Below, piece after piece: positions 445 through 19,180 of a DNA stretch of 33,177 nt (positions are counted from its first letter, which is position 1; each line of letters starts with the position of its first letter). The stretch comes from a virus: IMG/VR virus record IMGVR_UViG_3300048592_000391, positions 1 to 33,177 of that record; one strand, given 5' to 3'. The notes under the pieces are model-generated. The model saw only the letters and a list, made by a program, of their open reading frames with translations. It was not told the origin of the DNA and ran no database searches. Position numbers and translations under genes: made by a program.

Positions 445-460
445 GTTTTCCCAGGAAAAC
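445..460. promoter_or_regulatory. Near-palindrome GTTTTCCCAGGAAAAC, possible operator
   Basis: The 16-bp sequence is identical at 4983-4998, and a partial copy (CCATGTTTTCC) lies at 5496-5506. This copy is immediately upstream of the small helix-turn-helix gene on the minus strand. Dyad symmetry and recurrence next to regulatory genes suggest a repressor site; binding is inferred only. Confidence 0.4.
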
Positions 461-2966: not shown

Positions 2967-3314
2967 CTACCCTCCCGCTGCTGTAATTTGGCTGTGACAG
3001 GAGTGGCACAGCGGCTCCAGGTTGTCGGCGACATCGGCGCCGCCATCGCGCCTGGCGATCTTGTGATGTACATCTGTTGCGAGGGTCACACGACCGTTAC
3101 GAGCGCATTCGGCGCACCACGGACGATCTACCAGCACCATCAACCGGAGCTTGCGCCACCGCGCATCGTATCCGCGACTGGACGCCGATCCGCGCCGCTC
3201 GTCGTGTTCGGCCTGGGCACGACTCCGCACCGGCCCGCACACCGAGCACACCCCGCCGCTCACCAGCCCGGCGCAACCAGGTCGCCGGCACACCGTCGGC
3301 GCCTTCGATGGCAT
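2967..3314 (-). CDS. HNH endonuclease, terminase-associated
   Basis: This 115-residue HNH nuclease is of the kind found beside terminases in many long-tailed phages, where such nucleases assist DNA packaging. Two CxxC pairs (C67/C70 and C103/C106) form the zinc frame. The HNH core runs from DVHH (His83-84) through DNLEPL (Asn98) to CHSCHSQ (His107). An extra N-terminal cysteine cluster (C9, C14, C23, C26) looks like a zinc ribbon. The ATG has a good ribosome site (AGGAG eight bases upstream). The gene lies between a membrane protein and the small terminase on the same strand. Confidence 0.92.
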   Translation of the reverse strand: MPSKAPTVCRRPGCAGLVSGGVCSVCGPVRSRAQAEHDERRGSASSRGYDARWRKLRLMVLVDRPWCAECARNGRVTLATDVHHKIARRDGGADVADNLEPLCHSCHSQITAAGG

Positions 3315-3326
3315 AGGACTTAACTC

Positions 3327-3644
3327 CTATCTCCGCCGCTCGACCCGCACCAAACTGCGCGCATACAGCACCAGCCAACCCGCCCACACGCTGGCCGTCG
3401 CCAACGCCAACCAGCGCAGCAAATCCGCCACCTCACCGCGCCGCAACAACGGCGCCGGGCCGGCCGTCATCGCCAGCAGCCCGAACCACACCGCCAGCAT
3501 CGCCATCGCCGCCGCTCCCGGTAGCATCGTATAGCGCCGCAACCGCAGCGCCACGGCAGCCCCAAACAGCACCGCCGTGCTCATCGACGCCACCGACAAC
3601 AGCGCATAGGGCGCCATCGCCAACAAATCCTCATGCGGCGCCAT
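3327..3644 (-). CDS. Small membrane protein, three predicted helices
   Basis: This 105-residue protein is mostly hydrophobic. Helices are predicted at about residues 11-32, 39-62 and 75-95, with an Arg-rich C-terminus (RSLVRVERRR), presumably cytoplasmic. The ATG overlaps the stop of the CHAT protease gene (TGATG), so the two are co-translated. It sits in the place where holins and spanin-like proteins are found, after a two-helix holin-like gene and before HNH and terminase. It could be a second holin, an antiholin or a partner of the protease. No family was recognised. Confidence 0.75.
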   Translation of the reverse strand: MAPHEDLLAMAPYALLSVASMSTAVLFGAAVALRLRRYTMLPGAAAMAMLAVWFGLLAMTAGPAPLLRRGEVADLLRWLALATASVWAGWLVLYARSLVRVERRR

Positions 3645-4459
3645 CACGCACCACCGAGGCGCACAATCAGCGCCAGCATCAGCGACGCCAACACCACCGC
3701 CGACGCCAACATCAACATCAACGCCCGCGGCGACATCGCCACCCGCTGCTCCCGCTGCTGCTCCAGCGCCGCCAACCGCGCATCCGTCGCCGCGCGATAG
3801 CCGTCGATGCTGGCCGTCAACGCCTGCACCGTCGTCACCAACGTCGCCACCGTCGCAATCAAACCCGGCGTCCCCGTGAAGGTGTCGCCCCGAATCGCCC
3901 GCACCAGCGCCGCCACATCATCCTGCGCCTGCCCATCGCCGGCGCGCATCGATTGAGCCATAGAATCCCCACACGGAAAAAACCGATACTGCAACTGACC
4001 GGCTGCACTCGCCTGACGCGTCGCCGCTGCCAAATCGCTCGACTCCACCAACGCCCGCGCCAGAAACAGCGCCGCATCGACAGCCTCGCCATCCTCCACG
4101 CCGCTGGGCGCAATCGTGGCCACCATATCCACATTGGCGATCTGTTGGATTCTCAGCACATGCTCGGCGGAAAAACACGCATTGGCGACGAACATCCACG
4201 CCCGCACCGCCACCAACCAGCGCCCGCACTCCGCAGGCCGCCACACCCCGTCCGCCAGCGCCAGGCCGTCGCCGTCGCCGTGCCCCGCAAACCACGCCAG
4301 GTCGAACGGCCCATCCTCCAACGCATCGCGCAACCCACGCCGCGACGCATCCGCAATATGCACCATCCAGCCCGCCGCCGAGAACGTATTGGCCACATCG
4401 CCGACCTCAGCCGGCACCGCCAAATCAGGCGCAAACAGCGCAATCAAACAGACGCGCAT
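3644..4459 (-). CDS. Membrane-anchored CHAT-type (caspase-like) cysteine protease
   Basis: This 271-residue protein resembles CHAT/caspase-fold proteases. The His motif is in FDLAWFAGHGD (His60) and the Cys motif in MFVANACFSAEH (Cys95). They are followed by a strand (MVATIAPSG) and a helix (AALFLARALVES) in the order usual for CHAT domains. Residues 200-240 look like a coiled coil, and residues 248-267 are a transmembrane helix, leaving a tail-anchored enzyme facing the cytoplasm. The ATG at 4459 starts directly at the first beta strand; an upstream TTG at 4522 lacks a ribosome site. It sits between a holin-like gene and a coupled three-helix membrane protein. CHAT proteases are known in bacterial defence and separase-like cleavage, so one in a phage lysis position is unusual. 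The substrate is unknown. Confidence 0.7.
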   Translation of the reverse strand: MRVCLIALFAPDLAVPAEVGDVANTFSAAGWMVHIADASRRGLRDALEDGPFDLAWFAGHGDGDGLALADGVWRPAECGRWLVAVRAWMFVANACFSAEHVLRIQQIANVDMVATIAPSGVEDGEAVDAALFLARALVESSDLAAATRQASAAGQLQYRFFPCGDSMAQSMRAGDGQAQDDVAALVRAIRGDTFTGTPGLIATVATLVTTVQALTASIDGYRAATDARLAALEQQREQRVAMSPRALMLMLASAVVLASLMLALIVRLGGA

Positions 4460-4559
4460 CGCCACCCCCACACGCGCCGCGAGGCAGAGCGGCGCCGGAC
4501 ACCGCCCTGCCTCACGACCCAACCGTCAACCCATAGCAAGGAGAAACCCACTCAGGTAA

Positions 4560-4838
4560 TTAGCCCAACAACCAGCGCCGCATCTTCCCCGGATGCGCTG
4601 CCATCGGCTGCACATCCGCCGCCGGCGCAATCGTCGTATCGCGCACCTCAATCTGCATCCCCTGCTGGCGCGCCCACACCTCGATCGCCTTCGCAATCGC
4701 GCCAAGCAGCGCCACGATCAGCGCGCTGTACCAATACTCCGAAGAAGGGAAAAACCGCTCCAGGACACTCTGCACGCCGGGGATCAGCGCCAAAATCAGG
4801 ACCACCCACACCACGCCAGGCAACGCGTTCGCAGACAT
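4560..4838 (-). CDS. Holin-like two-helix membrane protein
   Basis: The 92-residue protein has two hydrophobic segments, about residues 6-22 and 37-53, separated by a short loop (ERFFPSSEYWY), and a longer polar C-terminus ending in KMRRWLLG. Size and topology match small phage holins, which form membrane holes at the end of infection. The ATG at 4838 has a strong ribosome site (GGAGG). It is the first gene of the minus-strand lysis/packaging operon; a candidate promoter lies at 4887-4915. No endolysin was recognised next to it, so the lysis role rests on topology and position. Confidence 0.65.
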   Translation of the reverse strand: MSANALPGVVWVVLILALIPGVQSVLERFFPSSEYWYSALIVALLGAIAKAIEVWARQQGMQIEVRDTTIAPAADVQPMAAHPGKMRRWLLG

Positions 4839-4886
4839 CGATCCTCCTCATTCCACCCCGAATGATTCTATGTCCAATCATTCAAC

Positions 4887-4915
4887 ATCATAGCATAATT
4901 GTGCTACTTATGGAA
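4887..4915 (-). promoter_or_regulatory. Candidate promoter of the holin-CHAT-terminase operon
   Basis: On the minus strand a TATGAT box is preceded at 17 bp by a poor TTCCAT box, about 50 bp upstream of the holin-like start. A 7-bp inverted repeat (AATGATT/AATCATT, 4861-4882) follows the box. The -35 match is weak, so an activator may be needed. Confidence 0.3.
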
Positions 4916-4951
4916 TCGTCAGAAGGATAGGAAATCCCGCGCTCAGGCAAC

Positions 4952-4977
4952 AAAAAAGCCGGGTCAATCGACCCGGC
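4952..4977 (-). terminator. Rho-independent terminator after the HIRAN gene
   Basis: On the minus strand an 8-bp GC-rich stem (GCCGGGTC/GACCCGGC, four-base loop) is followed by six T residues. It closes the HIRAN gene, which ends at 5000, and insulates it from the holin operon. Confidence 0.9.
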
Positions 4978-4982
4978 CTCAC

Positions 4983-4998
4983 GTTTTCCCAGGAAAAC
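4983..4998. promoter_or_regulatory. Second copy of near-palindrome GTTTTCCCAGGAAAAC
   Basis: It is identical to 445-460. Here it lies between the HIRAN stop codon and its terminator. Whether it is an operator or a residual repeat cannot be decided from the sequence. Confidence 0.35.
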
Positions 4999-4999
4999 A

Positions 5000-5410
5000 T
5001 CACCAGACGCGCCACCAGGGCCGCTCTGGCGTGGAGAACTCACGCAGAATCTCGTCTATGCTGCCATCTACCCACACGCTGTAATTGCTGGCGCCCTCGA
5101 ATGCCGTGATCTGCACCTGCACCTGCACGGCGACGAGTTTCAACTTGCGCAGCACAGGCGCCAGCCGCGCCGCGTCCGGCCTGGTCAGATAGCCAACTTG
5201 CATCTGATCTACATCGACGCGCATCGCATTGGCGTCGTGAGGGTTGCGCGGTTCCGGCACCAAATAACCAGTCTTCACCACCTCGACATCATCATGCTTG
5301 CATGAGCCGGCAATCTTAATCAGGTTGGCGCGATGGTGAGACTCACCAACGACCTCAATCTCAAACGAGTCGTTGCCCTCTAGGATAATCATTTGCGGAT
5401 TCTTCGCCAT
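5000..5410 (-). CDS. Standalone HIRAN-domain protein
   Basis: This 136-residue protein carries the HIRAN pattern: EVVGESHHRANL near residues 19-30, then GYLVPEPRNPHDANAMRV at 48-64, then QVGYLTRPDAARLAPVL at 71-87. In eukaryotic HLTF the domain binds 3' single-stranded DNA ends at stalled forks. Bacterial and phage versions are thought to act in DNA processing. Here it is not fused to a helicase or nuclease. The ATG at 5410 starts just before the domain; the open frame upstream lacks family features. It is transcribed divergently from the excisionase-like gene and has its own terminator. The role could be replication fork handling or lysogeny control. Confidence 0.75.
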   Translation of the reverse strand: MAKNPQMIILEGNDSFEIEVVGESHHRANLIKIAGSCKHDDVEVVKTGYLVPEPRNPHDANAMRVDVDQMQVGYLTRPDAARLAPVLRKLKLVAVQVQVQITAFEGASNYSVWVDGSIDEILREFSTPERPWWRVW

Positions 5411-5452
5411 CAGGGAACCTGCCTTTCGGGTCGATTCAGGGAAACTCAGGGA

Positions 5453-5482
5453 TTGACAACGCACTCGGATCGGGTGTAATCT
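5453..5482 (+). promoter_or_regulatory. Candidate promoter for the excisionase-like gene
   Basis: A perfect TTGACA at 5453-5458 is followed after 18 bp by TAATCT at 5477-5482, a moderate -10 box. It lies about 40 bp upstream of the start codon, in the divergent gap with the HIRAN gene. A partial copy of the GTTTTCC palindrome at 5496-5506 lies near the expected transcription start. Confidence 0.5.
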
Positions 5483-5524
5483 ATTTCCTGTAATTCCATG
5501 TTTTCCACAGGAGAGGATCACACG

Positions 5525-5737
5525 ATGCCTGAAGTCAATGGACCGCAGGCTGCCGAGATTATCGGAAAATCGATTCAGACCATTCACCGCCGCGTAGACG
5601 ATGGCACTCTACCAGCACGCGAAGAAGGCGCCGGTGAGCGAAAATTCGTCTACATCGAGATCGATTCTCTACGGCAGTTTGCCACGAAGTACGGCTACCG
5701 TTTTGACGAAACGATAGCCGCCCAGTACATCAAGTGA
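5525..5737 (+). CDS. Excisionase-like helix-turn-helix protein
   Basis: The 70-residue protein has a MerR/excisionase-type winged helix: AAEIIGKSIQTIHRRVDDGTL at residues 8-28, followed by a wing with FVYIEIDSLRQFA. Proteins of this size next to a phage integrase are commonly recombination directionality factors or small regulators. The ATG at 5525 is preferred because AGGAGAGG lies ahead of it; an ATG at 5498 has no ribosome site. It is transcribed toward the attP site and integrase from its own promoter, with the integrase on the opposite strand. The DNA-binding fold is clear and the Xis role is inferred from position. Confidence 0.75.
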   Translation: MPEVNGPQAAEIIGKSIQTIHRRVDDGTLPAREEGAGERKFVYIEIDSLRQFATKYGYRFDETIAAQYIK

Positions 5738-5912: not shown

Positions 5913-6806
5913 TTATTGAGATGCACCCCTCATCTTTGCGGAAAATTCGGAGACCAACCCATCGGTCAGCCACTCCGCATAGTGTTTCGCAGTAGTCCCG
6001 ATCTGCGCATGACCCAAGACTTTTTGAACGAGAGACATGTCGCCACCCTGATTTAGCAGGTACATGGCGAGGCCGTGTCGGAATGAATGCGGGTTGAGCG
6101 GCTCGACGCCAGCAGAGCGACAACGCCGGCGCAGCATCTGATAGATTCCCTTCTCCGTGAGCGCTGTCTTGGCGTGGCGGGCACCATCCGCAGCCAGGAA
6201 GAGCGAATCGACCGGGGACGCAGGACGCAGGAAGAGGTACGCAACGAGCGCACGCTCGACCGGCGGCAGCAGGGGAACCAGGCGGATGCCGGTTTTGCCG
6301 TCCACACGCAGCAGATGCTCGGCGGTTCGGTAGTCGGCAGCGGTCAGGCGGGCACATTCGCCCAGCCGGATGCCGGTGAGGAACAACGTCGAGACGATCA
6401 GCCGGTCCCGCAGGTCGATCCAATCGCCAACCGGGATGGAGTCGAGCAGGGCGGTATAGCTGTCGAAGGTGGTGCGCTTTGGTTCTCGGCGTGGGACCTT
6501 CGGCGGCGCAACGTCGGCCATGGGGCTGGCGGCGATGTAACGCCGCTTGACCAGCCAGGCGAAGAAGCCGACCAGGGAACGGTAGTGCGTGGCAACGGTG
6601 GCCGGTGCGTTGCCGTTGGCACGGCGTTCGGCAAGGTAGCGTTCGATCACCTCGGCGTGGAGCCAGTTGCCATTGTGCAGGTTGGACGATTCCAGCCAGC
6701 GCAGGAAAGCGGTGATCGATTCTCGATACCATTGCACGGTGCGTTTTGATTTGTTCTGCGCAGACAACGATTGGCAGAACAGATCGAGGAGTTGGTAGAC
6801 GGACAC
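5913..6806 (-). CDS. int: Tyrosine integrase (XerC/D-like)
   Basis: This 297-residue site-specific recombinase should insert the phage circle into the host tRNA-His gene. An N-terminal SAM-like core-binding domain spans about residues 4-90. The catalytic domain shows all key residues: Arg147 (GIRLGE), Lys171 (DGKTG), His240 and Arg243 (HSFRHG), His266 (LGHAQIG) and the nucleophile Tyr276 (AKHYAE). It starts at GTG 6806, with AGGAGA nine bases upstream. There is no arm-binding N-terminal extension, which fits the XerD-like size class. The attP sequence begins directly after its stop codon, so the gene sits at one end of the prophage when integrated. Confidence 0.95.
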   Translation of the reverse strand: MSVYQLLDLFCQSLSAQNKSKRTVQWYRESITAFLRWLESSNLHNGNWLHAEVIERYLAERRANGNAPATVATHYRSLVGFFAWLVKRRYIAASPMADVAPPKVPRREPKRTTFDSYTALLDSIPVGDWIDLRDRLIVSTLFLTGIRLGECARLTAADYRTAEHLLRVDGKTGIRLVPLLPPVERALVAYLFLRPASPVDSLFLAADGARHAKTALTEKGIYQMLRRRCRSAGVEPLNPHSFRHGLAMYLLNQGGDMSLVQKVLGHAQIGTTAKHYAEWLTDGLVSEFSAKMRGASQ

Positions 6807-13785: not shown

Positions 13786-13802
13786 GATTGGAGATTCACC
13801 GC

Positions 13803-15104
13803 ATGATCGAAGAACAACTGAGTCAAGAAATCAGGATTATCAATCAGACGTTGGCGGCGTTCGATGTCGATGCCGGCACCAAGCCCGCATGGACGGTCGT
13901 CGCCGGATCGTCGTTCGTGGCGTATGGCCTGCGCACAGGCCCGGCGCAACGCATCAGCGACGTGCAACGCCTGCTACCAGAACTGAGCGAACGATTGAGC
14001 GCAGCACGCCGCAAGCCGACGCCGGTACGACTGCGGGAGATGCCGCTTGCGCTGGAGACGCCGCACCCTAGCCCCTCTCCGCTCGACTGGCGCGGGGCAA
14101 CCATGCGCGTTGGCGCTGGCCGGATGGTGGCAGGCCGGAACTATTCGACTAGTCCGGCAAGTGACCAGGTGCTCGACCTGGCGCAGAAGCCGCACATGCT
14201 GATTGCTGGCACGACCGGAAGCGGGAAAAGCACGATGCTGCGCATGATGCTGGCGAGTCTGGCCTACAACGGCGATCCGGATCGGCTGCGGCTGGTTCTG
14301 GTCGATCTGAAAAATGAGGACTTGGTTCCCTTCGCCGATCTGCCACATGTCGAACTGTCGGCATGGCTGGCCGACGAAGCCCGCCGCATCGTCGCCACGG
14401 TGCACGCCGAACTGCAACGCCGTGTGCAGGCCGGTGTCGGCGAGTGGTCCCGGCTGGTGCTCGTGGTCGATGAGCTGGCGCAACTGGATCAGGCGTCGCT
14501 CGATCTGCTGTCGGCGATCCTGGCCGTTGGTCGCTCGAAGCGGGTGCATGTCATCGCCGCCACGCAGCATCCAGCCGTGCGGCTGATCGGCGACAAGGCC
14601 AACTACAGCGTGCGCCTCGTCGGTCAGGTGATGGACGCACAGACGGCCGCGCTGGCGACCGGGCGCAAGAACAGCGGTGCGGAGTTGCTGCCGGGTGCGG
14701 GTGCGTTTCTCTACGTGGACGGCTCCACGCTGGATCGGTTGCAGGCGTACAACCTCAACGCCGAGGCGGCCGCCGGGCTGGTGCGGGTGGTGCGGGAAAA
14801 GTGGTGCGAGGGTGGTGCGGGCGCACCGGTGCGCACTGGTGCACCAGAGGTAGAAGCGCTGCCAGCACCACAAACGAGCGTGCCCGCACCGGTGCGCACC
14901 GGTGTGACGTTTCCGCTGCCACGCCGTGCACCGACGGCGGAGGAAGCCGCCGAGATTCGCCGGATGCGGGCGGAACTCGGCAGCCTGAACCAAACGATCG
15001 TCGCCGTCTACGGTAGCAAGTCCAGCGACACGCATCGCTGGACGAGCGAGGCGCTCAGCCAGCCGGAACCGGCGCCGATTCTAAGATTGGCGGTGCGGTC
15101 ATGA
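13803..15104 (+). CDS. FtsK/SpoIIIE-type DNA translocase
   Basis: The 433-residue protein has an FtsK-like alpha/beta entry domain at about residues 30-85 (VVAGSSFVAYGLRTG, ISDVQRLLPELSERL). A RecA-like motor follows, with Walker A GTTGSGKST (136-144) and Walker B LVLVVDELAQL (218-228). The remark HVIAATQHP after it fits the family sensor strand. A Pro-rich linker with repeated APVRTG precedes a short helical C-terminus with SLNQTIVAVYGSKSSD (about 398-413). Such pumps move double-stranded DNA, in plasmid transfer or chromosome segregation; phage copies are less usual. The next gene overlaps its stop (ATGA) and two membrane proteins follow. There is no N-terminal membrane region in the protein itself. 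Confidence 0.8.
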   Translation: MIEEQLSQEIRIINQTLAAFDVDAGTKPAWTVVAGSSFVAYGLRTGPAQRISDVQRLLPELSERLSAARRKPTPVRLREMPLALETPHPSPSPLDWRGATMRVGAGRMVAGRNYSTSPASDQVLDLAQKPHMLIAGTTGSGKSTMLRMMLASLAYNGDPDRLRLVLVDLKNEDLVPFADLPHVELSAWLADEARRIVATVHAELQRRVQAGVGEWSRLVLVVDELAQLDQASLDLLSAILAVGRSKRVHVIAATQHPAVRLIGDKANYSVRLVGQVMDAQTAALATGRKNSGAELLPGAGAFLYVDGSTLDRLQAYNLNAEAAAGLVRVVREKWCEGGAGAPVRTGAPEVEALPAPQTSVPAPVRTGVTFPLPRRAPTAEEAAEIRRMRAELGSLNQTIVAVYGSKSSDTHRWTSEALSQPEPAPILRLAVRS

Positions 15105-16969: not shown

Positions 16970-19180
16970 TCACCACGTATTGATTCCCAGCAGCGGCGCC
17001 AAATGCCGTGCGTAGATCAGCGTCCCGGCGTCGTTCTGGTGCGTGTTGTCGCTGGTCAGTGACAGCCCGCTGGCGCTGCTGGCAGTCATCGCAGTGTAAT
17101 ACTGCCCGTTCCACCGCTGCGTGACATCGATCTCCCGCTCGAACGCCGTCGAGATGTCGATCAGTGACACGTCCCCATGCGCCACAAAAAGCGCCTTCAC
17201 CGCGTCGTATGCCTGCCGCGCCGTCACCGTGCCCAGCGCCGTCGCGCGCGTGCCATCGGCGTTGTAATATGCGCGCACAAAATGTGGCATCACCGCCAGC
17301 ACCTGCCAATCAGCCCAATCGCTGCTCTGAGTTTTCAGATTCCACGTGTTCGTCGCCCCAGGCCGGTCGCCCCAAACGGCGTCCCACACGCTGTTGCGGA
17401 TGGCGGCGACCGTTGCGCCCGCTGCCGCCAGCATGTTGATCATCGGAATCTCAAATATCACCAGATCGGGCGACTGGTCGATCACATCATCATCCATGTA
17501 ATCGTAGAGCGCATTGGCTGAGGTGTTGATCGTGTGCCCGCCGCGCGCCGAGTTGATCAGCATCGGCACGAACGCCCCATTTTTGTAATCGTAGAACTCG
17601 ACGCCCCAAAACAGCAGCCGGTTCGTGTTTGCGCTGGGCTTGCCGACGGAGATCGAAATAGCTGCGTTGATGTTGGCGGCAGCCTTACGCATATACAACC
17701 GTTTTTGATAGATCGTATTGGCGCGGCGCGCTCCCTCGTCAACCTCCGCCATTGAGAATGTGGCCGCATTCGCTTCCGCCCAGGCGCTGCCCGTCCAGTA
17801 CTCCAGATAGCCGTTGCCCTGCACGACCGTGATCGTGGCGGCAGGCTCGCCAGCCGTGTCGGTGCGGTAGATCAAATTGATCCCGCTCCGGTTGTCCGTT
17901 GTGCCCGCTGACCACGTAAACGCCGCATTTGTGCTGTCGCTGATGCGCGTCGAGGCGGGTCGATCCCCCTGGTCATCCCAGGCCGTGTTTGGCCCGCCGT
18001 TGGCCGTGTTGTCGCCGGTCGTCGACGTTGCCCACGTGCCCGCCAGAAAAAAATATCCGCCGCTCGAATGGTCGTACCGCCGATACTCCGCAGGTGGCAT
18101 CGTCGAGCGCAGCGCCTGCCACAGATACCACGCAATGTTGCGCGTCTCCAGCAGCGGCGGCAGTTCCGTCGGGTTGATCGTTCCCGCCGACGTATGCACC
18201 TCCCTGGCGAAAATCGAATCGCCCCACAGCACGACGCGCACGTGATCAGACGGATACAGAATCGCCTCCGCAAAGCCCGCCAAATTGCTCAGCACATGCG
18301 GATACAGATTCACCCACGGCGTTTGATAGGTCTCGCCCGCCAGCGGCTGGAGAAATGGCGAGCGAATCTGGCGGCTGGCTGTCGTGTAGATGGCGATCAC
18401 GTACACATCCGGGTCGCTCAGATTGCGCGTCAGCGCCGTGAACGACTCCACCAAGATGTTGCTGGTCGAATAGCCCGCCTGCACTGCCGTTGGATCGACG
18501 CCGACCACGTAGGCGTAGATCGTATTGTTGCCGCCGACGAACGAGGAGAAGTTGAGCGTAATCGTACTGATGAAGCTTACATACGTCCCGCTGCTGCCGT
18601 GGATGATGTAGCTGTTGGCCGGAATCGTCAGAATGTAGGTGTTGGCATCCCAGAAGACGCCGCCGCGCGCCTCATACGCCGCGCCGCTGCGCCACCGCTT
18701 CTCCAGGTCGAGCGCCTTCTTCACTTCCAGGAAGGGCGAGCGAATGCCGTTATCCGCCGACGTGTACACGGCGATCACGTACACATCCGAATCGCTCAGA
18801 TTGCGCGTCAGCGCCGAGAATGCCTCGATCTTGATGTTGCTGGTCGAGTACGCCGTCTGCACCGCCGTTGGATCGACGCCGACGACGTAGGCGTAAACGA
18901 TGTTGTTGCCCGTGTAGCTGGAAAAATCGAGCGATACCGGGCTGGTAAACGACAGATATTTCCCGCTGTTGCCGTGCAGGATATAGCTGGTCGCCGGAAT
19001 GCTCAGGATTTTTGTTGTGGCGTTCCACGTGATCCCGCCGCGCGCCTCATACGTGGCGCCGTTACGCGTCGCATTGACCCGATCCACAATCGCCGCATCC
19101 AGCGTGCCCAGCGGCGTGTTGATCGTGCTCGCATTCGCCGCCGCCCCGGTCGAAATCGCTGTGTGAAAAGTAGTCGTCAT
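16970..19180 (-). CDS. Tail fibre/spike with SGNH-type hydrolase domain
   Basis: This 736-residue protein is the last gene of the late operon, where receptor-binding fibres lie. Residues 41-151 and 166-277 are a tandem duplication (shared AYEARGG or TYEARGG, VYAYVVGVDPTAVQ, TRNLSD.DVYVIA). From about 310 a lipase/esterase-like SGNH domain follows: block I LWGDSIF (Ser322), then a Gly-rich SARGGHTIN, an Asn-containing FEIPMINML strand, and the catalytic DxxH as DNTH (711-714). It probably removes acetyl or ester groups from surface glycans during adsorption. The N-terminus (residues 1-40) probably joins the tail tip. The ATG at 19180 lies 12 bp after the preceding gene. Confidence 0.85.
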   Translation of the reverse strand: MTTTFHTAISTGAAANASTINTPLGTLDAAIVDRVNATRNGATYEARGGITWNATTKILSIPATSYILHGNSGKYLSFTSPVSLDFSSYTGNNIVYAYVVGVDPTAVQTAYSTSNIKIEAFSALTRNLSDSDVYVIAVYTSADNGIRSPFLEVKKALDLEKRWRSGAAYEARGGVFWDANTYILTIPANSYIIHGSSGTYVSFISTITLNFSSFVGGNNTIYAYVVGVDPTAVQAGYSTSNILVESFTALTRNLSDPDVYVIAIYTTASRQIRSPFLQPLAGETYQTPWVNLYPHVLSNLAGFAEAILYPSDHVRVVLWGDSIFAREVHTSAGTINPTELPPLLETRNIAWYLWQALRSTMPPAEYRRYDHSSGGYFFLAGTWATSTTGDNTANGGPNTAWDDQGDRPASTRISDSTNAAFTWSAGTTDNRSGINLIYRTDTAGEPAATITVVQGNGYLEYWTGSAWAEANAATFSMAEVDEGARRANTIYQKRLYMRKAAANINAAISISVGKPSANTNRLLFWGVEFYDYKNGAFVPMLINSARGGHTINTSANALYDYMDDDVIDQSPDLVIFEIPMINMLAAAGATVAAIRNSVWDAVWGDRPGATNTWNLKTQSSDWADWQVLAVMPHFVRAYYNADGTRATALGTVTARQAYDAVKALFVAHGDVSLIDISTAFEREIDVTQRWNGQYYTAMTASSASGLSLTSDNTHQNDAGTLIYARHLAPLLGINTW

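Follow-up and report, generated by a model that had tools for sequence, protein, structure and literature searches.

A divergent, membrane-anchored CHAT-family protease homologue between the holin-like and terminase genes of a temperate phage

Introduction

CHAT proteases are effectors of bacterial death and immunity. What, then, might a gene for a small membrane-bound relative be doing among the late genes of a temperate phage? The question is raised by a stretch of 33,177 nucleotides (hereafter the window), a complete temperate siphophage genome that has an exact 127-bp repeat at its two ends and encodes integrase, portal, capsid, tail and terminase genes; the phage is taken to be temperate because of its tyrosine integrase (5913-6806, minus strand; PF00589, 2.4e-23). 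A sequence-only reading of this DNA had proposed that a CHAT protease occupies the lysis position there. I asked whether the protein belongs to the CHAT family, and whether its surroundings speak for lysis, for defence or for some other function.

Results

Three genes, all on the minus strand, make up the cassette, and the earlier description of these reading frames and their coordinates was accurate. The first gene of the unit (4560-4838) encodes a holin-like membrane protein of 92 aa with two strong hydropathy helices (residues 8-26 and 38-56). It is followed by the CHAT gene (3644-4459, ATG at 4459), encoding 271 aa, and by a gene for a small membrane protein of 106 aa (3327-3644; 105 aa counted from the ATG) whose ATG overlaps the CHAT stop codon (TGATG). 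The translational coupling proposed for this third gene agrees with that overlap; of the three membrane helices ascribed to its product, hydropathy gives two clearly and a third more weakly, and a search for homologues of the protein found none. As had been noted, the cassette lies directly upstream of HNH and terminase genes, which come next on the same strand: an HNH endonuclease (2967-3314; PF01844, 4.9e-12; phrog_144, 6e-29), the small terminase subunit TerS (2444-2881; PF05119, phrog_83) and the large subunit TerL (772-2490; PF20441/PF03354, phrog_9). On its other side, beyond a terminator, a HIRAN-domain gene (5000-5587, minus strand; PF08797) adjoins the integrase gene; a HIRAN-domain gene also adjoins the integrase in the related phage L003 (3383-3907).

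The window protein is by itself almost invisible to searches. Compared with Pfam, PHROGs, PDB sequences, phages, plasmids and viral contigs it matched nothing, and PADLOC gave one weak match of the protein (P0001), to BovA (E 0.0083, residues 18-62). Relatives were reached exclusively through TerL scans, which led to CHAT homologues in the same slot upstream of HNH-TerS-TerL in L003 (TerL 71% identical to that of the window) and in L058 and L059 (65% each); these three loci, a small sample, represent two further lineages, and the L059 sequence is incomplete at its 5' end. The window and L058 proteins match with a phmmer E of 1.5e-9. Against the curated PF12770 CHAT cut-off of 24 bits, L058 (45 bits) and L059 (40.6) pass, L003 scores 19.1 and the window protein has no match. 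The proposed catalytic pair, His60 (codon 4280-4282, minus strand; DLAWFAGHGD) and Cys95 (codon 4175-4177, minus strand; FVANACFS), is invariant in the four phage homologues, at about 25% identity, which bears out the conservation expected in related phages. Profile comparison by hhalign of the four phage proteins with ten Chloroflexota CHATs gave a probability of 98.6 (E 9.7e-16); with the window protein by itself the probability was still 88.7 (E 2.5e-6). These alignments place His on His, in the GHG motif, and Cys on Cys, in NxC. Scanning for the pattern WFA[C/G]HGD returned L003, already known, and chance frames only.

The GC content of the three codon positions in the CHAT gene (0.68/0.52/0.80) resembles that of the other phage genes of the window. 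Since it does so, and since three other phages carry homologues that keep the dyad, the gene is neither a chance nor a shadow open reading frame, a possibility dropped also in view of dN/dS. Between L058 and L059 this ratio is 0.17 for the CHAT gene, 0.23 for its CHAT domain, 0.056 for its tail and 0.072 for TerL: the gene is under purifying selection in the relatives, with the domain more loosely held than the tail.

Structure prediction gave a divided answer. The AF2 model of the L058 CHAT domain (pLDDT 79.7, pTM 0.80) is of the caspase type: Foldseek ranked SAVED-CHAT first (E 1.5e-8, TM 0.74) and, next among caspase-like folds, separase (E 1e-3). The model of the window protein, the earlier of the two and built on two sequences, is of low confidence (pLDDT 59.6); it has the same strand order, but it gave no significant caspase match and was too poor to assign a fold. 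The caspase/CHAT fold claimed for the window protein stands on the retained dyad, the Chloroflexota profile match and the L058 domain model, its own model at 3644-4459 being too uncertain to add to them. The coiled coil and C-terminal membrane helix described earlier both reappear, as a long helix or coiled coil at residues 197-240 (3740-3871, minus strand) predicted by AF2 with low confidence, and as a transmembrane helix at residues 248-266 (3662-3718, minus strand) seen by hydropathy. The number of helices in the membrane tail varies: L003 has two by hydropathy and L058 apparently two from its sequence, against this single one in the window.

A search with the L058 CHAT profile also brought up L056 7542-8087, which was rejected as a CHAT gene because the match covers only coiled coil and membrane tail. 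This gene lies in a head-tail connector region and its coiled coil and two-helix tail are homologous to the L058 CHAT tail; its start carries GAQNVVVG/DQNVTIN motifs, and a Chloroflexota CHAT protein (L216) begins with a loose form of these. No tail relatives were found in 301 Chloroflexota genomes, in a scan run without a positive control.

Because of the dyad-keeping homologues in the same slot, the two PF12770 passes, the profile comparison and the L058 model, the product of 3644-4459 is almost certainly a divergent, membrane-anchored homologue of CHAT-family cysteine proteases, and a putative protease itself. A catalytically dead CHAT, serving as a scaffold or as an inhibitor of host CHAT effectors, would agree with the low identity to known CHATs and with the failure of the window protein to reach the PF12770 threshold, but a His and Cys invariant in four of four homologues that otherwise share about a quarter of their residues make this highly improbable.

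How would such a gene be expressed? An intrinsic terminator (4955-4980, minus strand; 11-bp stem and T run) separates the HIRAN gene from the cassette; it is conserved at L058 5799-5824, and downstream of it a presumed promoter region (4885-4940, minus strand) is conserved with L058, its core (4913-4940) being identical at 26 of 28 bases. A consensus sigma-70 scan scored no promoter upstream of the cassette in the window or L058, so that promoter activity is presumed from this conservation. A pattern scan for the upstream block found it in L058 only. Just downstream of the presumed -10 is an operator-like palindrome, GAATGATT-8-AATCATTC (4860-4883, no strand assigned), present as a single copy in the window; L058 has a different palindrome near its presumed transcription start. 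A further palindrome, GTTTTCC(CA/TG)GGAAAAC, occurs at window positions 445-460 and 4983-4998, a count exceeding that in all of 100 shuffles, and also in DNA of its relatives, at L114 (169, 15167 and 17692), L115 (9725) and L056 (2126 and 8469); its sites appear to sit where genes end or in the gaps separating transcription units, in the manner of stoperators or repressor sites.

The gene preceding CHAT bears directly on a role in lysis. In L003 it is a Holin_LLH gene (31.5 bits, cut-off 24.9) that overlaps CHAT by ATGA. In L058 a holin-like gene (5927-6238) encodes a homologue of the window 4560-4838 product (phmmer 6e-9), and the CHAT ATG comes straight after the stop codon of this gene. The holin-like neighbour named in the sequence-only reading is thus a family member in L003, while the two-helix proteins of the window and L058 reach no holin family cut-off. 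Directly before the holin-like gene of the L058 phage, L115 8698-9720 encodes a DUF4236-SH3_3 protein, whose SH3_3 part could bind cell wall.

Likewise, the remark that the genome has no recognisable endolysin holds for the complete window, and for the L058 phage, a second complete genome (127-bp end repeats): no endolysin family appeared among the matches listed, which were the best 25 families per scan, reaching about E 0.0035 for the window (Pfam for its longer ORFs, and PHROGs) and 8e-5 for L058 (Pfam for chosen ORFs). Amidase_2, M23 and SLT (PF01510, PF01551 and PF01464) were absent from the records tested. A tail protein of the window (16970-19180), with no family match, has a by-eye SGNH-type hydrolase motif (VVLWGDSIF).

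The host is probably a Chloroflexota bacterium. An initial scan of genomes with TerL found no prophage; a second had Chloroflexota among its best matches (56-57%), and the nearest prophage hosts are Chloroflexota. The CHAT cassette was not found in the DNA examined around these second-scan matches. Two further features of the phages may be recorded: an FtsK/HerA-like ATPase in the early region of the window (13788-15104), with an FtsK/SpoIIIE match in the L058 phage too, and ParA- and ParB-like proteins alongside the integrase in the latter (L114 15184-18046).

The position of CHAT after a holin, where LLH-type cassettes carry their endolysin, and the lack of a recognisable endolysin among the matches listed for two complete genomes might suggest that CHAT replaces that enzyme: it might attack a proteinaceous wall once the holin has opened the membrane, or switch on a pore in the way that CHAT proteases activate bacterial gasdermins. 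A Dehalococcoidia MAG with a related prophage would fit such a replacement, as a penicillin-binding transpeptidase was looked for in it and none was shown. However, transpeptidases are present in the three best-matching Chloroflexota MAGs, whose hosts therefore presumably have peptidoglycan, and no gasdermin-like family was recognised among the listed matches of the CHAT neighbours. Relatives lacking CHAT, described below, also lack an endolysin by the families tested; the missing endolysin is therefore not tied to CHAT carriers, and the enzyme may simply go unrecognised. Replacement of the endolysin by CHAT is accordingly distinctly unlikely.

Several relatives keep the slot without CHAT. G005 (TerL 69%) has, in order, an integrase, an LLH-like holin with weak similarity to that of L003, a coiled-coil protein, a membrane protein and then HNH; L062 (TerL 54%) and L124 (TerL 56%) have holin-like and TM-coiled-coil proteins. 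In L002 (TerL 88%) HNH is preceded by a tail-like gene and a short ORF, with no CHAT there. Since the close relatives G005, L062 and L124 retain holin, HNH and terminase genes without it, CHAT is an optional, dispensable occupant of a variable slot. These findings cut both ways for the lysis part that had been proposed: the position in a holin module and the absence of a recognisable endolysin favour it, but CHAT is not retained in G005, L062 and L124. Of the two observations that were to count against it together, absence of the gene from close relatives was found and a normal endolysin elsewhere was not, the tested relatives included.

The main rival to a role in lysis, and a real possibility, is that CHAT is a prophage-borne effector of defence or superinfection exclusion, a moron whose membrane-bound product would sense another phage and kill or arrest the cell, like the CHAT proteins of Borvo and of type III-E CRISPR. 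CHAT proteases are known effectors of abortive infection (PMC10952713). The weak BovA match, the optional occurrence of the gene, its place near the integrase, as is usual for morons, and the faster evolution of the CHAT domain relative to tail and TerL all point the same way. Against this, CHAT lacks a separate transcription unit: it is packed in among the holin-like and terminase genes and shares an upstream block with them, start and stop codons overlap in L003 and in the window, and four phages retain the slot.

Discussion

The reading I tentatively prefer, at somewhat less than an even chance, makes CHAT a membrane protease that is expressed late, as an accessory to the holin/lysis module. 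As the second gene of a unit behind a conserved terminator and a presumed promoter, one running from the holin-like gene to TerL, CHAT should be made late. The long helix and the C-terminal membrane helix would hold its domain at the cytoplasmic side of the host membrane, an orientation suggested by the lack of a signal sequence. I infer proteolysis, its timing, its target and its part in lysis: late in infection the enzyme may cleave a membrane-proximal host or phage protein, and this cleavage may aid killing or set the timing of lysis, peptidoglycan not being expected to be cut by CHAT itself. Two further considerations count against a place in the lysis module: the protease is expected on the cytoplasmic side, away from the wall, and known CHAT proteins are mostly immune effectors.

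With the CHAT family (PF12770; SAVED-CHAT, PDB 8tl0; the Chloroflexota CHATs) the phage protein shares a caspase-type fold, GHG and NxC motifs, a beta hairpin after the His and the domain boundaries. It differs in being a stand-alone domain of 150 residues with a C-terminal membrane tail and no sensor, encoded in a packaging/holin operon. Both architecture and context are new for this known family, and full-text literature searches found no paper that places CHAT in a phage lysis cassette. Viral CHAT-like folds are nevertheless not unique to the group formed by the window, L003, L058 and L059, since the viral protein A0A1P8DJ94 has the fold of the L058 domain model.

Among known systems, Borvo is linked to CHAT, BovA being its CHAT protease (PMC10952713). 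BovA, like the window protein, is a CHAT protein without other known subunits, but the resemblance is local, 45 residues matching weakly to a profile of 711 positions. Borvo is not known to include a membrane-anchored holin neighbour. Type III-E CRISPR TPR-CHAT (Craspase) and the gasdermin-activating CHAT proteases share the theme of a CHAT protease as a cell-death switch; unlike them, the window has no recognised adjacent Cas or gasdermin gene, and no TPR or other sensor. The LL-H-type holin-endolysin cassettes of temperate siphophages are close in layout, as in L003 too Holin_LLH comes first, a second gene directly after it overlaps it, and HNH and terminase follow, but that second gene encodes a CHAT protease homologue instead of a peptidoglycan hydrolase. 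Foldseek also matched the CHAT domain model weakly (E 9e-4) to DdvA, a bacterial transmembrane anti-sigma factor (PDB 8rw5); compared by this match alone, its 872-residue chain has an arrangement unrelated to that of the phage CHAT.

A small membrane CHAT fixed in the holin-terminase operon of temperate phages would mean that this bacterial effector has been adopted into the phage late programme or, alternatively, that phages carry CHAT as a weapon on a shared holin promoter. It also raises the question of how Chloroflexota-type phages without a recognisable endolysin leave the cell. A bolder idea is that their lysis programme uses a membrane-tethered caspase-fold protease for a pyroptosis-like exit from hosts with unusual envelopes, proteolysis replacing or supplementing the endolysin; this is unlikely.

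One more explanation is host take-over or counter-defence, in which the protease would cleave a protein of the host's membrane, division machinery or immune system. Many CHAT proteins matching the phage profile are encoded in Chloroflexota genomes, the hosts being rich in multidomain CHAT/STAND-type systems, and a membrane tether would suit a membrane target; the late-operon position argues otherwise and nothing specific in the sequence points to such a target, which makes this explanation very unlikely. One compact Chloroflexota protein (L215 880-2079) has a CHAT domain followed by an apparent TIR domain.
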